NCBI GenBank assembly: GCA_902763865.1
Contig: CACWTR010000008.1
Span: 79,481 to 143,480 of the forward strand
Source: an uncultured Bacteroidales bacterium
Lineage (GTDB): Bacteria; Bacteroidota; Bacteroidia; Bacteroidales; Bacteroidaceae
Direction of reading: 5' to 3'
Length of the DNA: 64,000 nt
In this document: in pieces, positions 6,095 to 39,163 of the stretch
How the letters are laid out: each line of letters opens with the position of its first letter
How positions within the stretch are numbered: position 1 is the first letter of the stretch
The notes under the pieces: model-generated
Databases searched by the model: none
What the model saw: the letters and a program-made list of their open reading frames with translations, nothing else
What the model was told of the DNA's origin: nothing
Translations under genes and position numbers: made by a program

Positions 6095-6320
6095 CACATT
6101 ATTTGTTAATTATCCGTCAAAACAGCCCTCAAATAACATCTTTTAAGGAATAATTGCTCTGCGGGGGCATCGTCAAGGCCCTACTCGAGGGTTGTCAGAG
6201 TATAAAAACACCGAAATCAAGATACGATATTGCCTTCCGACGCGGACAGAAAAGCTGAGACGTGCATGATGAAGTCCTCAGGTCCGCAAAGACAAACCTT
6301 GAGGAACGCGGCGAAAAGTT

Positions 6321-6402
6321 ATTTTCAAACCATGAAAATCTATTTTCAAACTTTGAAAATTAATTTTCATGACGTGAAAATTGATTTTCACGTCATGAAA
6401 AT
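6321..6402. repeat. 21-bp-period palindrome array A (4 units)
   Basis: Four 19-bp units ATTTTC-N7-GAAAAT start at 6321, 6342, 6363 and 6384 with exactly 2-nt spacers, so the period is 21 bp. The N7 centres are AAACCAT, AAACTTT, ATGACGT and ACGTCAT; the last two are reverse complements. AAAAGTT precedes and AGTTTTT follows. Apparent translations are a by-product of the 7-codon period. Of the rest of the 6006-6667 gap, I see only the promoter at 6087, this array, a small CCTCGTAT/ATACGAGG hairpin near 6435-6458 and the hairpin at 6475; 6110-6310 holds nothing I recognise. Confidence 0.9.
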
Positions 6403-6474
6403 AGTTTTTGCAACACGTTCTTTCGGCGTCCAGACCTCGTATCTCAATAATATACGAGGGGATATCATGATAAG

Positions 6475-6564
6475 CAACAACGGATTAAACGGATTAGACG
6501 GATTTATGCTACACTGATAGCCAGCATAAAAGAAAATCCGTCTAATCCGTTTAATCCGTTGTTG
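6475..6564. repeat. 31-bp perfect inverted repeat made of 9-bp units
   Basis: Left arm 6475-6505 and right arm 6534-6564 are perfect reverse complements. Each arm is three 9-bp units of type ACGGATTAA. The spacer carries a second 8-bp stem (TTTATGCT at 6503-6510, AGCATAAA at 6523-6530). A T-run follows on the + strand at 6581-6589. It lies about 100 nt downstream of the DUF4831 gene, so a 3'-end role is possible. A related structure is at 60956-61051. Confidence 0.85.
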
Positions 6565-6667
6565 TTTACGTTTAATCCGTTGTTTTTTTATATAATGGTA
6601 TTATGACACAGCCCCGTGCTGAATGATTCCGGTTGTCGTCTTGTCTGGAACAGTCTTCGCGGGGGAG

Positions 6668-7769: not shown

Positions 7770-8045
7770 TCATTTATGTCTGTTGGCGCGTTGGCGTCGG
7801 ATGTCTGCTTTCTTCTTGGCGGCTCCGCTGCCGTGAGCGCCGGTGATGTACTGTTTCTTCTTCGCCTTGGTCTTGACTTTAGCTTCCTCCTTCCTTGTGC
7901 CGCCTTTTGCGCCGCCACGGAAGGTTATGCCTTCGAGGATGACGGCATCGATGTCGTCTCCTCCGTGGCTTCGGCCAAGACCCCCTCTAACTCCCCCGTG
8001 AGGGGGAGAACCGTTGGGCGAGTCATTTGTATTGTTCTTGTTCAT
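7770..8045 (-). CDS. Doubtful small basic ORF, partly overwritten by the DUF559 element
   Basis: A 91-codon frame. Its first third ('SPNGSPPHGGVRGG') is a translation of the element's left inverted repeat at 7977-8011, and its start lies inside the DUF559 coding region. The remaining part ('GDDIDAVILEGITFRGG', then a Lys/Arg-rich tail 'KKKADIRRQRANRHK') could be the remnant of a small basic protein that lost its own start when the element inserted. No family recognised. It may equally be spurious. Confidence 0.3.
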   Translation of the reverse strand: MNKNNTNDSPNGSPPHGGVRGGLGRSHGGDDIDAVILEGITFRGGAKGGTRKEEAKVKTKAKKKQYITGAHGSGAAKKKADIRRQRANRHK

Positions 8046-8479
8046 GAAGTATCTCTTTTATTTTGTCTATAACGTGGTCTGTTTGGAGGATTACCTCGTC
8101 ATTGGTGAAAGGAATGAGTGTGAAGCCGAGTGACTCCAGACGTTCTGTCCGTCCTTCATCGTATTGCTGCTGTTCGTATTCAGAATGATATGCGCCATCC
8201 ACTTCAATGATAAGTTGTGACTTCAGCGACACGAAATCTACGATATAGTCTGCAATTATGTATTGCCTGAAGAACTTTGTCCTCAATGTTTGACCTCTGA
8301 GCCGTTCCCGCAGAACCGCTTCTGCTCTCGTGGGATTCTTCCTGTTCTGCCGTGCCCAGTCCTTCAGGAGCGGGTACCTGTCACTTGCAGCCCATTTCAG
8401 CTCATCAATCATCTCGCCTGTTTCTTTTCCTTTTCTGCGGACACGTTCTCCCCCTTACGGGGGAGTTAGAGGGGGTCTT
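7977..8479. mobile_element. 503-bp element: DUF559 nuclease gene between 35-bp inverted repeats
   Basis: Left repeat 7977-8011 and right repeat 8445-8479 are reverse complements at 34 of 35 positions. Each contains the palindrome CTCCCCC-4nt-GGGGGAG plus an outer AAGACCCCCTCTAA arm. The only gene between them is the DUF559 nuclease (8023-8412), 11 nt from the left repeat and 32 nt from the right repeat. The right repeat ends exactly at base 8479, next to the purH stop codon at 8480-8482. I see no target-site duplication. Calling it mobile is inference from the inverted-repeat structure and the dispersed copies of the same palindrome elsewhere in the window. Confidence 0.6.
8023..8412 (-). CDS. 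DUF559 family endonuclease-fold protein
   Basis: 129 residues, full length for DUF559, which shares the PD-(D/E)XK fold with Vsr-type repair nucleases. The family pattern is visible: 'RKNPTRAEAVLRERLRGQ' near residue 27, 'TKFFRQYIIADYIVDFVSL' near 45-63 (catalytic Asp in 'ADYIVDF'), 'LIIEVDGAYHSE' (catalytic Glu/Asp, about 67-78), and 'DEGRTERLESLGFTLIPFTNDEV'. Predicted to cut or nick DNA; the physiological target is unknown. It is bracketed by 35-bp inverted repeats of a family scattered through the window, suggesting it helps move or maintain those repeats (inference). Confidence 0.85.
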   Translation of the reverse strand: MIDELKWAASDRYPLLKDWARQNRKNPTRAEAVLRERLRGQTLRTKFFRQYIIADYIVDFVSLKSQLIIEVDGAYHSEYEQQQYDEGRTERLESLGFTLIPFTNDEVILQTDHVIDKIKEILHEQEQYK

Positions 8480-9661
8480 TTAGTGGTGGAACAGTCTGAT
8501 GCCGGTGAAGGTCATGGCGATGCCGTACTTGTCGCAGGTCATGATGACGTGGTCGTCGCGGACGCTGCCGCCGGCCTGTGCGATGTATTCCACACCGCTC
8601 TTGTGGGCGCGTTCCACGTTGTCGCCGAAGGGGAAGAAGGCATCGCTGCCGAGGCTCACGCCCGTGTTCTTCGCTATCCACGCCTGTTTCTCCTCACGGC
8701 TGATGGGTTCGGGCTTCTCGGTGAAGAACTTCTGCCACTCGCCTTCTGAGAGCACGTCCATGTAGTCGTCGCTGATATAGACATCGATGGTGTTGTCGCG
8801 GTCGGCCCTGCGTATGCCCGGCACGAAAGGCAGCGACATCACCTTCGGGTTCTGGCGGAGCCACCACGTGTCGGCCTTGTTGCCAGCCAGACGGGTGCAG
8901 TGGATGCGGCTCTGCTGGCCTGCGCCGATGCCGATGGCCTGCCCGTCCTTGACGTAGCAGACGCTGTTGCTCTGCGTGTATTTCAGCGTGATAAGGGCGA
9001 TGATGAGGTCGCGCCTGGCATCGGCAGGGAAGTCCTTGCAGGCCGTGGGTATGTTCTCGAAGAGGGCGGGGTCGTCTAGCTTCACCTCGTTGCGACCCTG
9101 CTCGAAGGTCACGCCGAACACCTGCTTGCGCTCGATGGGTGCGGGAGTGTAGTCGGGGTCAATGCGGATGATGTTGTACGTTCCCTTGCGTTTCTCCCGG
9201 AGGATTTGCAGAGCATCCTCGGTGAAGTCGGGTGCGATGATGCCGTCGCTCACCTCGCGCTTGATGATGAGAGCCGTGGCCTCGTCGCATGTGTCGCTCA
9301 GGGCAATGAAGTCGCCATAGCTGCTCATGCGGTCGGCTCCCCTGGCACGTGCGTAGGCACAGGCAATGGGGCTGAGGGGCACCTTGATGTCATCTACGAA
9401 ATACACCTTAGCCAGCGTGTCGCTCAACGGCAGGCCGACAGCAGCTCCGGCGGGGGAGACGTGCTTGAAGCTGGCTGCTGCGGGCAGGCCGGTGGCAGCC
9501 TTGAGCTCTTTGACGAGCTGCCAGCTGTTCAGTGCGTCGAGGAAATTGATGTAGCCGGGTCGTCCGCCCAGCACCTCGATGGGCAGTTCGCCCTCTTCCA
9601 TGAAGATGCGGGAAGGCTTCTGGTTTGGGTTGCAGCCGTACTTGAGCTGAAGTTCTTTCAT
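8480..9661 (-). CDS. Stand-alone AICAR formyltransferase (purine synthesis)
   Basis: 393 residues covering only the AICAR transformylase part of the usual bifunctional PurH (about 510-530 residues); the N-terminal IMP cyclohydrolase domain is absent. The reaction is formyl transfer from 10-formyl-THF to AICAR, giving FAICAR. The catalytic motif 'KHVSPAG' is at residues 66-72; other landmarks are 'SDGIIAPDFTEDAL', 'KYTQSNSVCYVKDGQAIGIGAGQQSR' (abridged) and C-terminal 'SDAFFPFGDNV'. The cyclohydrolase step must be encoded elsewhere. It has its own -7 box at 9694-9701. The inverted-repeat element abuts its stop codon. Confidence 0.9.
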   Translation of the reverse strand: MKELQLKYGCNPNQKPSRIFMEEGELPIEVLGGRPGYINFLDALNSWQLVKELKAATGLPAAASFKHVSPAGAAVGLPLSDTLAKVYFVDDIKVPLSPIACAYARARGADRMSSYGDFIALSDTCDEATALIIKREVSDGIIAPDFTEDALQILREKRKGTYNIIRIDPDYTPAPIERKQVFGVTFEQGRNEVKLDDPALFENIPTACKDFPADARRDLIIALITLKYTQSNSVCYVKDGQAIGIGAGQQSRIHCTRLAGNKADTWWLRQNPKVMSLPFVPGIRRADRDNTIDVYISDDYMDVLSEGEWQKFFTEKPEPISREEKQAWIAKNTGVSLGSDAFFPFGDNVERAHKSGVEYIAQAGGSVRDDHVIMTCDKYGIAMTFTGIRLFHH

Positions 9662-25110: not shown

Positions 25111-26466
25111 CTATCCTACAATCAGCTTGTCTATAAGCACCGTCGGAAGTCCCTGACTTACGGCCACCCTCTGGCCTTCCTTGCCGCACATGCTGGCACT
25201 GTGGTCTATCTTGAGATTGTCGCCCACCATGCTGATGCGGCGAAGAGCCTCGGGTCCGTTGCCGATGATGTTCAGGTCGCGAAGCGGTCGCGTCAGCCTT
25301 CCGTCCTCAATGAGGTAGCCGGTCTTCATGAAGAAGGTGAAGTCGCCTGCACCGATCTGTACCTGGCCGTTGGTAAACGACTCAGCATAGATGCCGCGCT
25401 TCACGCTTCGGATGATGTCTTCCTCTCGGGCCTCGCCAGGCAGCATGTAGGTGGAACGCATTCGCGGAAGGGGGAGACAGCGGAAGCTCTCCCTGCGTCC
25501 GTTGCCCGTCGGCTTTACGCCGAAGTGGTGCGCACTGATACGGTCATAGAGGAAACTGTTGAGCTTGCCTTCGTGGACGAGAACGGTACGTTGCCCGGCG
25601 ATGCCTTCATCGTCATAGCGCAGCATGCCGGCATCGCCGGTGAGTGTGCCGTCATCGACAATGCTGATGCTTGGATGACAAATCTGCTGACCCAGCTTGC
25701 CGGTAAAGATACTGTCGCCGGTTCGGATGAAGTCGGCTTCGAATGCGTGCCCGATTGCTTCGTGAAGCAAGATGCCACTGCTGCCTGCCGCCATTACTAC
25801 AGGCATCTCGCCACCTTCTATCTGGGAAGCGGCGAAGAGGAAGTCGGTGCGGCTGACGGCTTCCCTCACGACTTCGTCAATGAGAGCATCGCTGAAGAAT
25901 TCCTGCCCCATCTGCATCATCCGCGATGCGAAGCCCATCTGTGTCTGGCCACCACGCTCCATGACAATGCTGACCGAGAGTGACGTCCGTGGACGGAAGT
26001 CCTGAAAGGCCGTGCCGTCGCTGCCAGCAAACTGCACCTGCTGCATCCGTTGCGAGACGTAGGCTTTGACCCTGATGATGGAGGAATCGAGGGCGCGGGC
26101 CTTCTCTTCTACGTCAAGGAGAATTTTGCGAACGGCCTCGCCCCCCATCCCTCTCGGAGAGGAAGGGTTGAACGGATGAATAAAGTCCTGCAACGGAAGC
26201 CCCCCTCCACGGAGAGGGGTTGGGGTGAAGCTGTTGGCCGCCTTCCTCAACCCTTCTTCGCTCAGGTCCATTGTATAGGCATAACTCGTCTCGCTGCCGC
26301 AGACGGCACGGATGCCGGCACCATAGAGACGGACTTGCTGAGCCTGACTCACCTTGCCGTCTTGCAGCACCATGCTGCTGATGTCGGTGTTCTCTACAAA
26401 GATGTCGGCATAAACCCTCTCTGACTCCCCCTTGAAGGGGGAGAAACATTCGCACGATGAAGTCAA
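25111..26466 (-). CDS. TldD-like zinc metalloprotease, 5' end remodelled by repeats (TTG start uncertain)
   Basis: About 451 residues from the TTG at 26466; no in-frame ATG exists between the upstream tlpA stop and residue 36 of this reading. The zinc motif HEAIGH ('GILLHEAIGHAFE') and the C-terminal 'SMCGKEGQRVAVSQGLPTVL' identify TldD, the active subunit of the TldD/TldE protease. The usual N-terminal helix before 'ADIFVENT' is missing or replaced by sequence from a palindromic repeat ('FSPFKGESERV'). Two more repeats are translated within the N-terminal domain as 'TPTPLRGGG' and 'NPSSPRGMGG'. The open frame continues upstream into tlpA, but that is a shadow. Whether the protein is fully functional is unclear; the catalytic part is intact. 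Confidence 0.75.
   Translation of the reverse strand: MTSSCECFSPFKGESERVYADIFVENTDISSMVLQDGKVSQAQQVRLYGAGIRAVCGSETSYAYTMDLSEEGLRKAANSFTPTPLRGGGLPLQDFIHPFNPSSPRGMGGEAVRKILLDVEEKARALDSSIIRVKAYVSQRMQQVQFAGSDGTAFQDFRPRTSLSVSIVMERGGQTQMGFASRMMQMGQEFFSDALIDEVVREAVSRTDFLFAASQIEGGEMPVVMAAGSSGILLHEAIGHAFEADFIRTGDSIFTGKLGQQICHPSISIVDDGTLTGDAGMLRYDDEGIAGQRTVLVHEGKLNSFLYDRISAHHFGVKPTGNGRRESFRCLPLPRMRSTYMLPGEAREEDIIRSVKRGIYAESFTNGQVQIGAGDFTFFMKTGYLIEDGRLTRPLRDLNIIGNGPEALRRISMVGDNLKIDHSASMCGKEGQRVAVSQGLPTVLIDKLIVG
26140..26230. repeat. Two GC-rich palindromic repeats inside tldD
   Basis: Copies at about 26140-26171 and 26199-26230 share the pattern CCCC...TC...GGAGAGG...GGGTTG and bracket 27 nt of unique coding sequence. 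Both are read through in frame. Confidence 0.7.
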
Positions 26467-26504
26467 GTCCCTCCCTTTAGGGGAGGGTTGTTGGGGAGGG
26501 GCTG
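26415..26504. repeat. Two GC-rich palindromes at the tlpA/tldD junction
   Basis: One copy (26415-26446, core CTCCCCC-TTGAA-GGGGGAG region) falls inside the tldD frame. The other (26469-26504) lies between the tlpA stop at 26519 and the candidate tldD TTG at 26466, so the tldD start region is largely repeat sequence. Confidence 0.75.
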
Positions 26505-26518
26505 TTGGTTTTAGTCTC

Positions 26519-27628
26519 TTACTTGTCAAGGTACTCTGCCAGTGTCTTGCCCAGTTCTTCGCCACGCAGGTTAGTCTTGAGCACCTTGCCGTCCGGACCG
26601 TAGAGGATGGTGGCGGGAATAGCCTTGATGTTGTAGAGGTCGCTGGCTGCACACTGCCATCCCTTCAGGTCGCTGATCTGAGGCCAGGTAATGCCCAGGT
26701 CTTTCACGCCTTTTGCCCAGTCTTCCTTCTCGCTGTCGAAAGAAATGCCAACCACTTCGAAGCCCTTCTCATGGTACTTCTCGTAGCAGGCCTTCACGTT
26801 GGGCATCTCGGCACGGCAGGGGCCGCACCAGCTTGCCCAAAAGTCAACGAGGACATACTTGCCCTTGCCCACGTAGTCTGTCAGGTGGCATTCCTGGTCG
26901 TCGAGATTCTTGCCCACGAAGTCAACCACGGGTGCTCCGACCTGCTTGTTCTTTTCGCCTCCAAGAGAGGCTACGATGGGCTCGAGTGTCTTGTTGTCCT
27001 TGTACTTATAGTCCTTCAGGAAGTTCTCAATGAACTCTACGCCGAGGTCTGTTCCGCCGATGCTGAGGAAGACGATGGGCAGCATGTTGTCGGCATTCTC
27101 GGTGATGATTTGCCTTTGAGTGGCATATATGTCTTCCTGGATTGCTTCGTAGCGGTTGTCGAAGCCTTCCATCTCTTCGTCGGGAATCTGTCCCTGATAC
27201 TTTTCGTGAGCTTCGCTGTAGTCCTTCATGAGTTGATCCATCTGGCTGCTTGTCTCGTTCATGCGCTGGAAAGCCTCGCTGAGCCTCATGTTCTGGTCGG
27301 AACCTTTTGTCACTTCAGCCTTTCCGTCCTTGATGCTGACCTCAATGGGCGTGCCGTCGAGGAAGACAGTGCACACACCTTGTGGCCTGTTTTCGTCGCG
27401 GCAGATGGTGGCGATGACGGTCTCGGCTGTGTCAACGGTGAAGGTTATCACTCCGTCAGCGTTTTGTCCTTTGCCGATGATTTGTCGCGACTGGAATGCG
27501 CAAAGCACGTCGGGCTCGGGGCTGCCAAGTTCACCTGTCACCTTGATTTCTGTCTTCGTCTTTGTCGTCTCAGCGCAAGCTGCCAGACAGATGGCAGCAA
27601 GCATCGTCAGAATAAAGTTCTTTTTCAT
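26519..27628 (-). CDS. TlpA-like thiol-disulfide oxidoreductase lipoprotein (DUF4369 type)
   Basis: 369 residues. The lipobox 'LAAC' (Cys18) indicates a lipoprotein. The N-terminal part (about 25-230) is the DUF4369-like beta domain found in Bacteroidales TlpA proteins. A thioredoxin fold follows with the active site 'WASWCGPCR' (C268, C271), 'GISFDSEKEDW' and the cis-Pro loop 'IKAIPATILY'. It likely reduces or oxidises disulfides in the periplasm. It has its own promoter at 27693-27700, so it is separable from the upstream hexuronate operon, and may be co-transcribed with tldD-tldE. Confidence 0.9.
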   Translation of the reverse strand: MKKNFILTMLAAICLAACAETTKTKTEIKVTGELGSPEPDVLCAFQSRQIIGKGQNADGVITFTVDTAETVIATICRDENRPQGVCTVFLDGTPIEVSIKDGKAEVTKGSDQNMRLSEAFQRMNETSSQMDQLMKDYSEAHEKYQGQIPDEEMEGFDNRYEAIQEDIYATQRQIITENADNMLPIVFLSIGGTDLGVEFIENFLKDYKYKDNKTLEPIVASLGGEKNKQVGAPVVDFVGKNLDDQECHLTDYVGKGKYVLVDFWASWCGPCRAEMPNVKACYEKYHEKGFEVVGISFDSEKEDWAKGVKDLGITWPQISDLKGWQCAASDLYNIKAIPATILYGPDGKVLKTNLRGEELGKTLAEYLDK

Positions 27629-34727: not shown

Positions 34728-34768
34728 CCACCCCCTTCGCTCCCCCTTGCGGGGGAGTTGGAGGGGAG
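34728..34768. repeat. CTCCCCC...GGGGGAG palindromic repeat, copy after giant gene 2
   Basis: CTCCCCC-TTGC-GGGGGAG with TTGGAGGGGA following, ending about 8 nt after the giant gene's stop codon. Same family as 2381-2416 and the DUF559 inverted repeats. Confidence 0.75.
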
Positions 34769-39121: not shown

Positions 39122-39163
39122 CCACCCCTTACCTCCCCCTTGCGGGGGAGGCAGAGGGGGGCT
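39122..39163. repeat. CTCCCCC...GGGGGAG palindromic repeat, copy after giant gene 3
   Basis: CCTCCCCC-TTGC-GGGGGAGG core flanked by CACCCC and GAGGGGGG, ending within 3 nt of the stop codon of the giant gene. Confidence 0.75.

Follow-up and report, generated by a model that had tools for sequence, protein, structure and literature searches.

The window, a stretch of 64,000 nucleotides from an uncultured Bacteroidales bacterium, contains a compact element of 503 bp (7977-8479, minus strand) made up of two palindromic arms and a single DUF559 gene, and standing in place of the spacer that in relatives separates purH from the following gene. Upstream lies purH itself (AICARFT/IMPCHase; 8480-9661, minus strand), whose stop codon touches the first arm: the last position of the arm is 8479, and that of the purH reading frame, counting its stop codon, is 8480. 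An earlier note, made from the letters alone, had described two inverted repeats agreeing at 34 of 35 positions, each with an internal CTCCCCC/GGGGGAG hairpin, that enclose a sole DUF559 gene and abut the purH stop codon, and in each of these particulars it was correct. The arms (7977-8011 and 8445-8479) are 35 nt each, 97% complementary and separated by 433 nt, and share a layout of outward tail, short spacer and GC-rich hairpin. Read on the minus strand, the upstream arm (8445-8479) consists of the tail AAGACCCCCTCT, the spacer AA, the hairpin CTCCCCC-GTAA-GGGGGAG and a final AAC. The downstream arm (7977-8011, plus strand) is its inverted copy (34/35), and its G strand runs CTCCCCC-loop-GGGGGAG-TTA-GAGGGGG, a hairpin followed by a mirror third strand as in a triplex motif, with a mirror score of 7 for the 7-nt stem (7/7). 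Between the arms is one open reading frame (8023-8412, minus strand), encoding a DUF559 nuclease of 129 amino acids (PF04480, E 6.9e-29). The part of the next gene that follows (containing GGDDIDAVILEG; 7770-7976, minus strand) is outside the element and without its native start region, which is present in the empty sites of relatives and gone beside the window element.

The genome from which the window derives (84% complete) encodes two DUF559 genes. The second copy is framed by arms of another sequence and begins after another stop codon, that of a gene which from its sequence we take to be yicC. This second copy, on contig C18 (L001), runs in frame into the next gene, presumably guanylate-kinase-like, the start of which is missing. 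DUF559 frames likewise continue into a next gene at four other loci (L040, L079, L082 and L235), and relatives have open frames of similar length.

A structure model of the window protein (pLDDT 85) has as its nearest solved structures NGO0050 (3hrl) and the homing endonuclease I-Bth0305I (3r3p). Profile searches agree on these two proteins (I-Bth0305I, Foldseek E 7.5e-5 and profile E 1.7e-8), Vsr is a weaker structural match, and PADLOC returned weak homing-endonuclease matches. In an alignment of 50 sequences that includes the window protein, E31, D59, E70, D72, H76 and D85 are among the invariant residues. In the accessible part of one source a DUF559 gene is assigned to the EDxHD family of homing endonucleases (PMC9403480). 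DUF559 proteins may also serve in other roles, Caulobacter VsrA having been proposed, in the portion available, to act as a repair nuclease of the Vsr type (PMC12907096).

Are the arms part of a wider family of palindromes in the window? The hairpin CTCCCCC-N4-GGGGGAG occurs five times in it (up to two mismatches were permitted and all five are exact), against a mean of 0.22 in shuffled sequences, none of 100 of which reached five. The earlier note took three further hairpins (copies at 2381, 34728 and 39122) as solitary members of the arm family, and this reading fails. These hairpins (2391-2408, 34740-34757 and 39133-39150) all read CTCCCCC-TTGC-GGGGGAG, lie shortly 3' of the stop codons of one gene family and have only the 18-nt hairpin in common with the element arms; the 39133 copy differs from the arm core at 3 of 19 positions. 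Together with two loci elsewhere in the genome (L009 and L010) they have both flanks in common, namely the 3' end of the gene family and an A+T-rich downstream region, and so represent repeated gene ends rather than dispersed arm copies. That all hairpins of the window form one dispersed family is therefore ruled out. A fourth proposed copy, at 26415, is indeed an arm-like palindrome, not an exact solitary one: it makes up one half of a mosaic doublet in which two unlike tail-plus-hairpin palindromes are combined (26425-26487), its 26425-26443 copy departs from the arm core at 3 of 19 positions, and the doublet sits in frame inside an ORF (25111-26652, minus strand) that we take from its sequence to be TldD-like. 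Among the window and the loci fetched for DUF559 or the hairpin (L001-L017), the exact arm core is confined to the element itself. Elsewhere in the window, a spacer between two genes (6300-6600) contains A/T palindromes in runs (ttttcatgacgtgaaaatt), and ggattaaacggattagacggattt occurs there as an inverted repeat. An Rfam search of the window gave one tRNA as its only match.

By comparison across genomes, the palindrome-framed DUF559 arrangement is general and extends far beyond the window. DUF559 is present in 100 of 139 genomes of the genus. From the better-scoring part of the match list there, 93 matches were reduced to a non-redundant set of 83 with enough flank by removal of one short-flank match and nine near-duplicates; these correspond to 81 loci, since L061, split by a stop codon, counts twice and L032 has two genes. 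The earlier note had staked its proposal on the DUF559 genes of relatives possessing flanking inverted repeats, and an inverted repeat scoring at least 30 spans the flanks in 77 of the 83 matches, against 1 of 147 displaced placements within these loci. The latter figure rules out chance framing from C-rich flanks. Six of the 83 score below 30 (L031, L032, L035, L041, L052 and L069); most lower-scoring genus matches also show tail-plus-hairpin arms, and L052 is framed by an interrupted palindrome. When flanks of different elements were paired, 19.8% of 1245 combinations reached 30, which we attribute to palindrome types being common to several elements; this control is accordingly not neutral. 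In further Bacteroidales (from the best 80 of 534 named records), 55 of 63 matches are framed and 8 of 63 score below 30; the control, covering all loci of that comparison, from which 19 near-duplicates and 2 short matches had been dropped, gave 2 of 147. One locus is framed by two unlike palindromes (L137). On one contig (G024 contig C4, L246), a short DUF559 remnant still lies between arms, apparently a decaying element.

In other phyla, 14 of 18 loci, two of which are near-copies of others, reach 30 as a framed or one-sided pair, against 3 of 40 in the control; the one-sided pair was added after the loci had been read, the original criterion having been satisfied by 8 of 16 loci from other phyla. 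Four loci stay below 30 even with one-sided pairs (L218, L222, L233 and L234). Among records of a plasmid collection, the gene is framed by arms in Neisseria, Sphingomonas, cyanobacteria and Deinococcus, and in Sphingomonas the element lies between sufB and sufC with tails inward (L225). A palindrome pair or array on one side only is found in Escherichia coli, Sinorhizobium, Photobacterium, Azospirillum, Methylobacterium and Shinella. The unframed other-phyla loci were considered as counterexamples and rejected as such, all six having a one-sided pair or array. Phage records yielded three weak DUF559 matches only.

The earlier note had also looked to purH sites lacking the element, and such sites exist in relatives; near-identical empty sites were found at other loci as well. 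At the purH site, 30 orthologous loci were read by eye over 260 bases each. Full elements are present in G000, G087 and G076; G085 and G090 each have one palindrome standing alone; G016, G027 and G052 have pieces resembling tails; and G112 and G053 have a hairpin or tail-like piece. Nothing element-like was seen by eye within the 260 bases at the other 20 of the 30 loci. A full element at purH was also read in G074 (L098), and a gene-less doublet in G017. Five loci in three close genome pairs provide filled and empty alleles, and no target-site duplication was seen on inspection at any of the five. Instead, target bases are replaced, 26-54 bp where measurable. At L239 the element lies in frame inside an epimerase-like gene in place of 26 bp (boundaries by eye) that form a hairpin with an 8-bp stem, and at L243 the replaced 26 bp contain the neighbours' stop and start codons. 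The empty genome has 48 bp at L242, the L236 site involves 54 bp, and at L247 the counterpart genome bears a different solitary palindrome. The filled alleles at L243 and in the window are without the native start of the next gene, which suggests that the filled state is the derived one. Compared across genomes, the element is present at many unrelated sites and arrives without target-site duplication. It tends to lie directly behind a stop codon: in 72 of 126 elements the start is no more than 15 bp from an ORF stop on the nuclease strand, and in 13 this holds for the other side, compared with 92 of 2520 random positions. Such placement could arise because insertions that break genes are selected against, or because the element genuinely prefers these targets.

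The two arms of one element match as a rule, and are unlike the arms of other elements in the same genome. Where nucleases are at least 75% identical and sit at non-orthologous sites, the arms are alike (mean similarity 0.83 in 16 pairs, mostly of one clade). Elements of the same genome whose nucleases are less than 60% identical have an arm similarity of 0.36 (22 pairs), against 0.33 between genomes. The overall correlation of arm and protein, calculated with 11 of the 83 left out, is weak (Spearman 0.17), and was reached in none of 500 permutations. The nuclease itself is under purifying selection, with a median dN/dS of 0.066 in the 29 of 159 pairs that have a finite dS, the rest being saturated.

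Copies of the arms without the gene are numerous in some genomes. The earlier note had proposed counting palindromes against the presence of DUF559, and with GACTCTCCCCCNGCCCTCCCT, counted in 139 genomes, copies go with the cognate nuclease, a link that is confounded by phylogeny and based on counts uncorrected for it or for genome incompleteness, to each of which the element itself adds two. The median is 37 copies in the 13 genomes with a cognate nuclease (at least 77% identity); 11 of the 13 have at least nine and the other two just one. The median is 1 in 27 genomes with a nuclease 60-73% identical, 0 in 60 genomes with other DUF559 only (7 of which hold at least nine), and 0, with a maximum of 7, in 39 genomes without DUF559. 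The reversed pattern, used as a control, occurs 0 times in the 139 genomes. Among the matches listed, 20 of 22 palindrome pairs within 200 bp have, by eye, their tails outward. Twenty such doublets were fetched and read, and have the form of REPIN-like inverted doublets, a non-autonomous unit. Aligned to the ends of the cognate element, 19 of 20 match over at least 40 nt and 14 of 20 over at least 50 nt, the arms being about 35 nt. One doublet keeps 121 bp, reaching the last codons of the nuclease (L332), and another keeps the start codon and codons of both ends of the nuclease gene (L325), the codons being recognised by eye in each case. From these retained ends, the doublets are read as internal-deletion derivatives of the element. 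A 493-bp doublet on another contig (L329, G018 contig C67) contains several arm copies together with other palindromes.

The arms recall the BoxC, PIT or TM_ECO palindromes, known since the 1990s according to the accessible text of Holder et al. 2015 (PMC4666352). Both have a GC-rich hairpin with a mirror third strand, occur as inverted pairs and are found in many genomes. The window arm moreover has the second loop T-T-A of TM_ECO type A, which the same text describes as a purine-type intrastrand triplex (PMC4666352). Over 261 arms the mean mirror score is 5.3, against 3.2 for shuffled tails; mirror symmetry beats shuffled tails at p<=0.1 in 142 of the 261 and at p<=0.02 in only 87, so that the hairpin with mirror third strand typical of BoxC/PIT is a property of the arms as a set, not of every arm. 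As far as the available text goes, the TM_ECO triplex was seen in vitro, a stable triplex in vivo was unsupported by the authors' own data, TM_ECO loci are variable in E. coli, the authors report no mobility function close to these motifs, and their text mentions neither ycjD nor endonuclease (Holder et al. 2015, PMC4666352). YcjD of E. coli is a DUF559 protein. TM_ECO no. 9 of MG1655, placed at 1,351,239-1,351,204 in the portion of the table available (PMC4666352), lies 168 bp after the ycjD stop codon (1,351,407). Of 5426 complete genomes, 3364 contain the ycjD region. In an even-step sample (60 rows minus 2 partial records), in which the link to ycjD is confounded by lineage, 37 ycjD-bearing genomes have a median of at least 35 matching places (23-37 among the matches listed) and 21 complete chromosomes without ycjD a median of 8 (4-37). 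A simple empty site in E. coli was sought and rejected: the two ycjD-less strains read carry efflux genes after sapF, so there is no clean element boundary there. Titles and abstracts linking DUF559 or YcjD to palindromes were not found in a literature search that subscription journals and bioRxiv largely fell outside. Two of the papers it turned up mention both DUF559 and palindromes, and seven both DUF559 and REP.

Taken together, the framing, the empty sites and the doublets make it likely that these loci are a mobile element of about 450-600 bp, with two palindromic ends and a single DUF559 gene, the nuclease of which is the probable mobiliser. We infer the latter role from comparison. Each end of the element is a palindrome, as a rule with an outward tail, and the layout of hairpin and tail matches that of an intrastrand triplex motif. 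The nuclease would recognise its cognate tail and hairpin, perhaps as an extruded hairpin or triplex, and the break it makes would free or copy the element, open the target, or both. Host repair would then join the element in, and the bases lying between its two junctions would be lost. Doublets and single palindromes would be moved in trans or be remnants.

If a nuclease is the only protein encoded, could it be a mere passenger, trapped between palindromes that are mobilised in trans, for example by a Y1/RAYT transposase? E. coli also has a RAYT, which counts for such a reading, and RAYTs are proposed movers of REP doublets elsewhere, in the accessible part of the source (PMC3116915). The linkage of DUF559 to palindromes (77/83, 55/63 and 14/18 in the three comparisons) argues against it, as do the tracking of palindrome type with nuclease clade, the remnants of the nuclease gene in doublets and the purifying selection on the nuclease. 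Of 278 arms, moreover, a single one has GTAG immediately at the 5' foot of its hairpin; 6 have it up to 14 nt away on the 5' side, and 31 no more than 15 nt away on the 3' (inner) side. We regard the passenger explanation as unlikely. Slightly less probable still is that the nuclease acts like a homing endonuclease, cutting an allelic site into which repair copies the element, with spread between genomes. The closest characterised structure, I-Bth0305I, the EDxHD homing endonuclease classification of a DUF559 gene in the part of the literature available (PMC9403480), and the recurrence of different elements and palindromes at the purH 3' end all speak for homing. Related elements, however, occupy non-orthologous sites, where homing would confine them to a single allelic position within an intron or intein, many gene-less copies occur per genome, and homing alone yields no terminal inverted palindromes. 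That the palindromes are terminators or fragile sites near which Vsr-like DUF559 repair genes persist or recombine draws on the proposal for Caulobacter VsrA (accessible part of PMC12907096) and on the gene-end hairpins without DUF559 in this genome, and is very improbable given that arms match within an element and differ between elements of the same genome, and that arms and gene are jointly absent at empty sites.

Mobilisation by the DUF559 nuclease itself is thus our preferred reading, and a broader form of it is on balance favoured, with less assurance than the mobile element as such: that DUF559/YcjD proteins are dedicated mobilisers of pan-bacterial palindromic repeats. Such elements would combine one EDxHD nuclease, two triplex-forming ends, replacement of a few tens of bp of target, the lack of any known transposase or recombinase, and gene-deleted doublets. 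The same broader reading would cover BoxC/PIT/triplex REPs and relatives in Bacteroidota, Cyanobacteria, Deinococcota and Pseudomonadota. The DUF559 family may then supply the mobiliser so far lacking for triplex repeats of the BoxC/PIT type, which have been without an enzyme able to spread them. DUF559, a family of so far unassigned function, occurs in or beside palindromes in several phyla, even in E. coli K-12 as YcjD. If the proposal is true, these elements are a class of transposable element whose enzyme type and insertion signature, target replacement without duplication, are unlike those of known systems. It would also account for DUF559 genes located between the genes of an operon and for those joined in frame to a neighbouring gene.

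How do these elements compare with systems already described? MITEs of insertion sequences are internal-deletion derivatives that retain terminal inverted repeats, and the gene-less doublets resemble them as deletion derivatives keeping the ends of the element. Unlike insertion sequences and MITEs, the five filled/empty pairs have target bases replaced and no target-site duplication, and the master copy is without a DDE or other known transposase. Compared with BoxC/PIT as described in the available text of Holder et al. (PMC4666352), the motifs here differ in enclosing a nuclease gene and in having doublets derived from the element. To the EDxHD homing endonuclease I-Bth0305I the likeness is one of catalytic-domain fold; that enzyme is, in the portion of the source available, the protein of a mobile intron, and its DNA-binding region is extended (PMC3943268), whereas DUF559 is a stand-alone domain of about 130 amino acids whose gene sits in an element with palindromic ends. 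CGTC-tagged REPs are apparently without a dedicated transposase, as far as the accessible text goes (Di Nocera et al. 2013, PMC3733652); considered as DUF559 partners, none was noticed by eye beside the DUF559 loci read. REP/REPIN/RAYT systems are the parallel drawn by the earlier note, and the likeness is considerable: short palindromes with an unpaired tail, tails-outward inverted doublets, a linked nuclease-type gene and several families per genome (available parts of PMC3116915, PMC6006769 and PMC3733652). Framing, empty sites, non-autonomous doublets and a copy number that goes with the cognate nuclease all support a REP/RAYT-like reading. Enzyme, tail motif and the occurrence of the gene with its arms at several sites differ. 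Instead of a Y1 (HUH) transposase, the only gene of the window element is PF04480 DUF559, of the PD-(D/E)XK/EDxHD fold; a GTAG-type guide is not a feature of the DUF559 arms, the tails of which by inspection mostly start with G(A/C)C(C/T); and, in contrast to RAYT, the DUF559 gene itself is found at multiple sites together with its arms, and the interiors of the doublets derive from the element.
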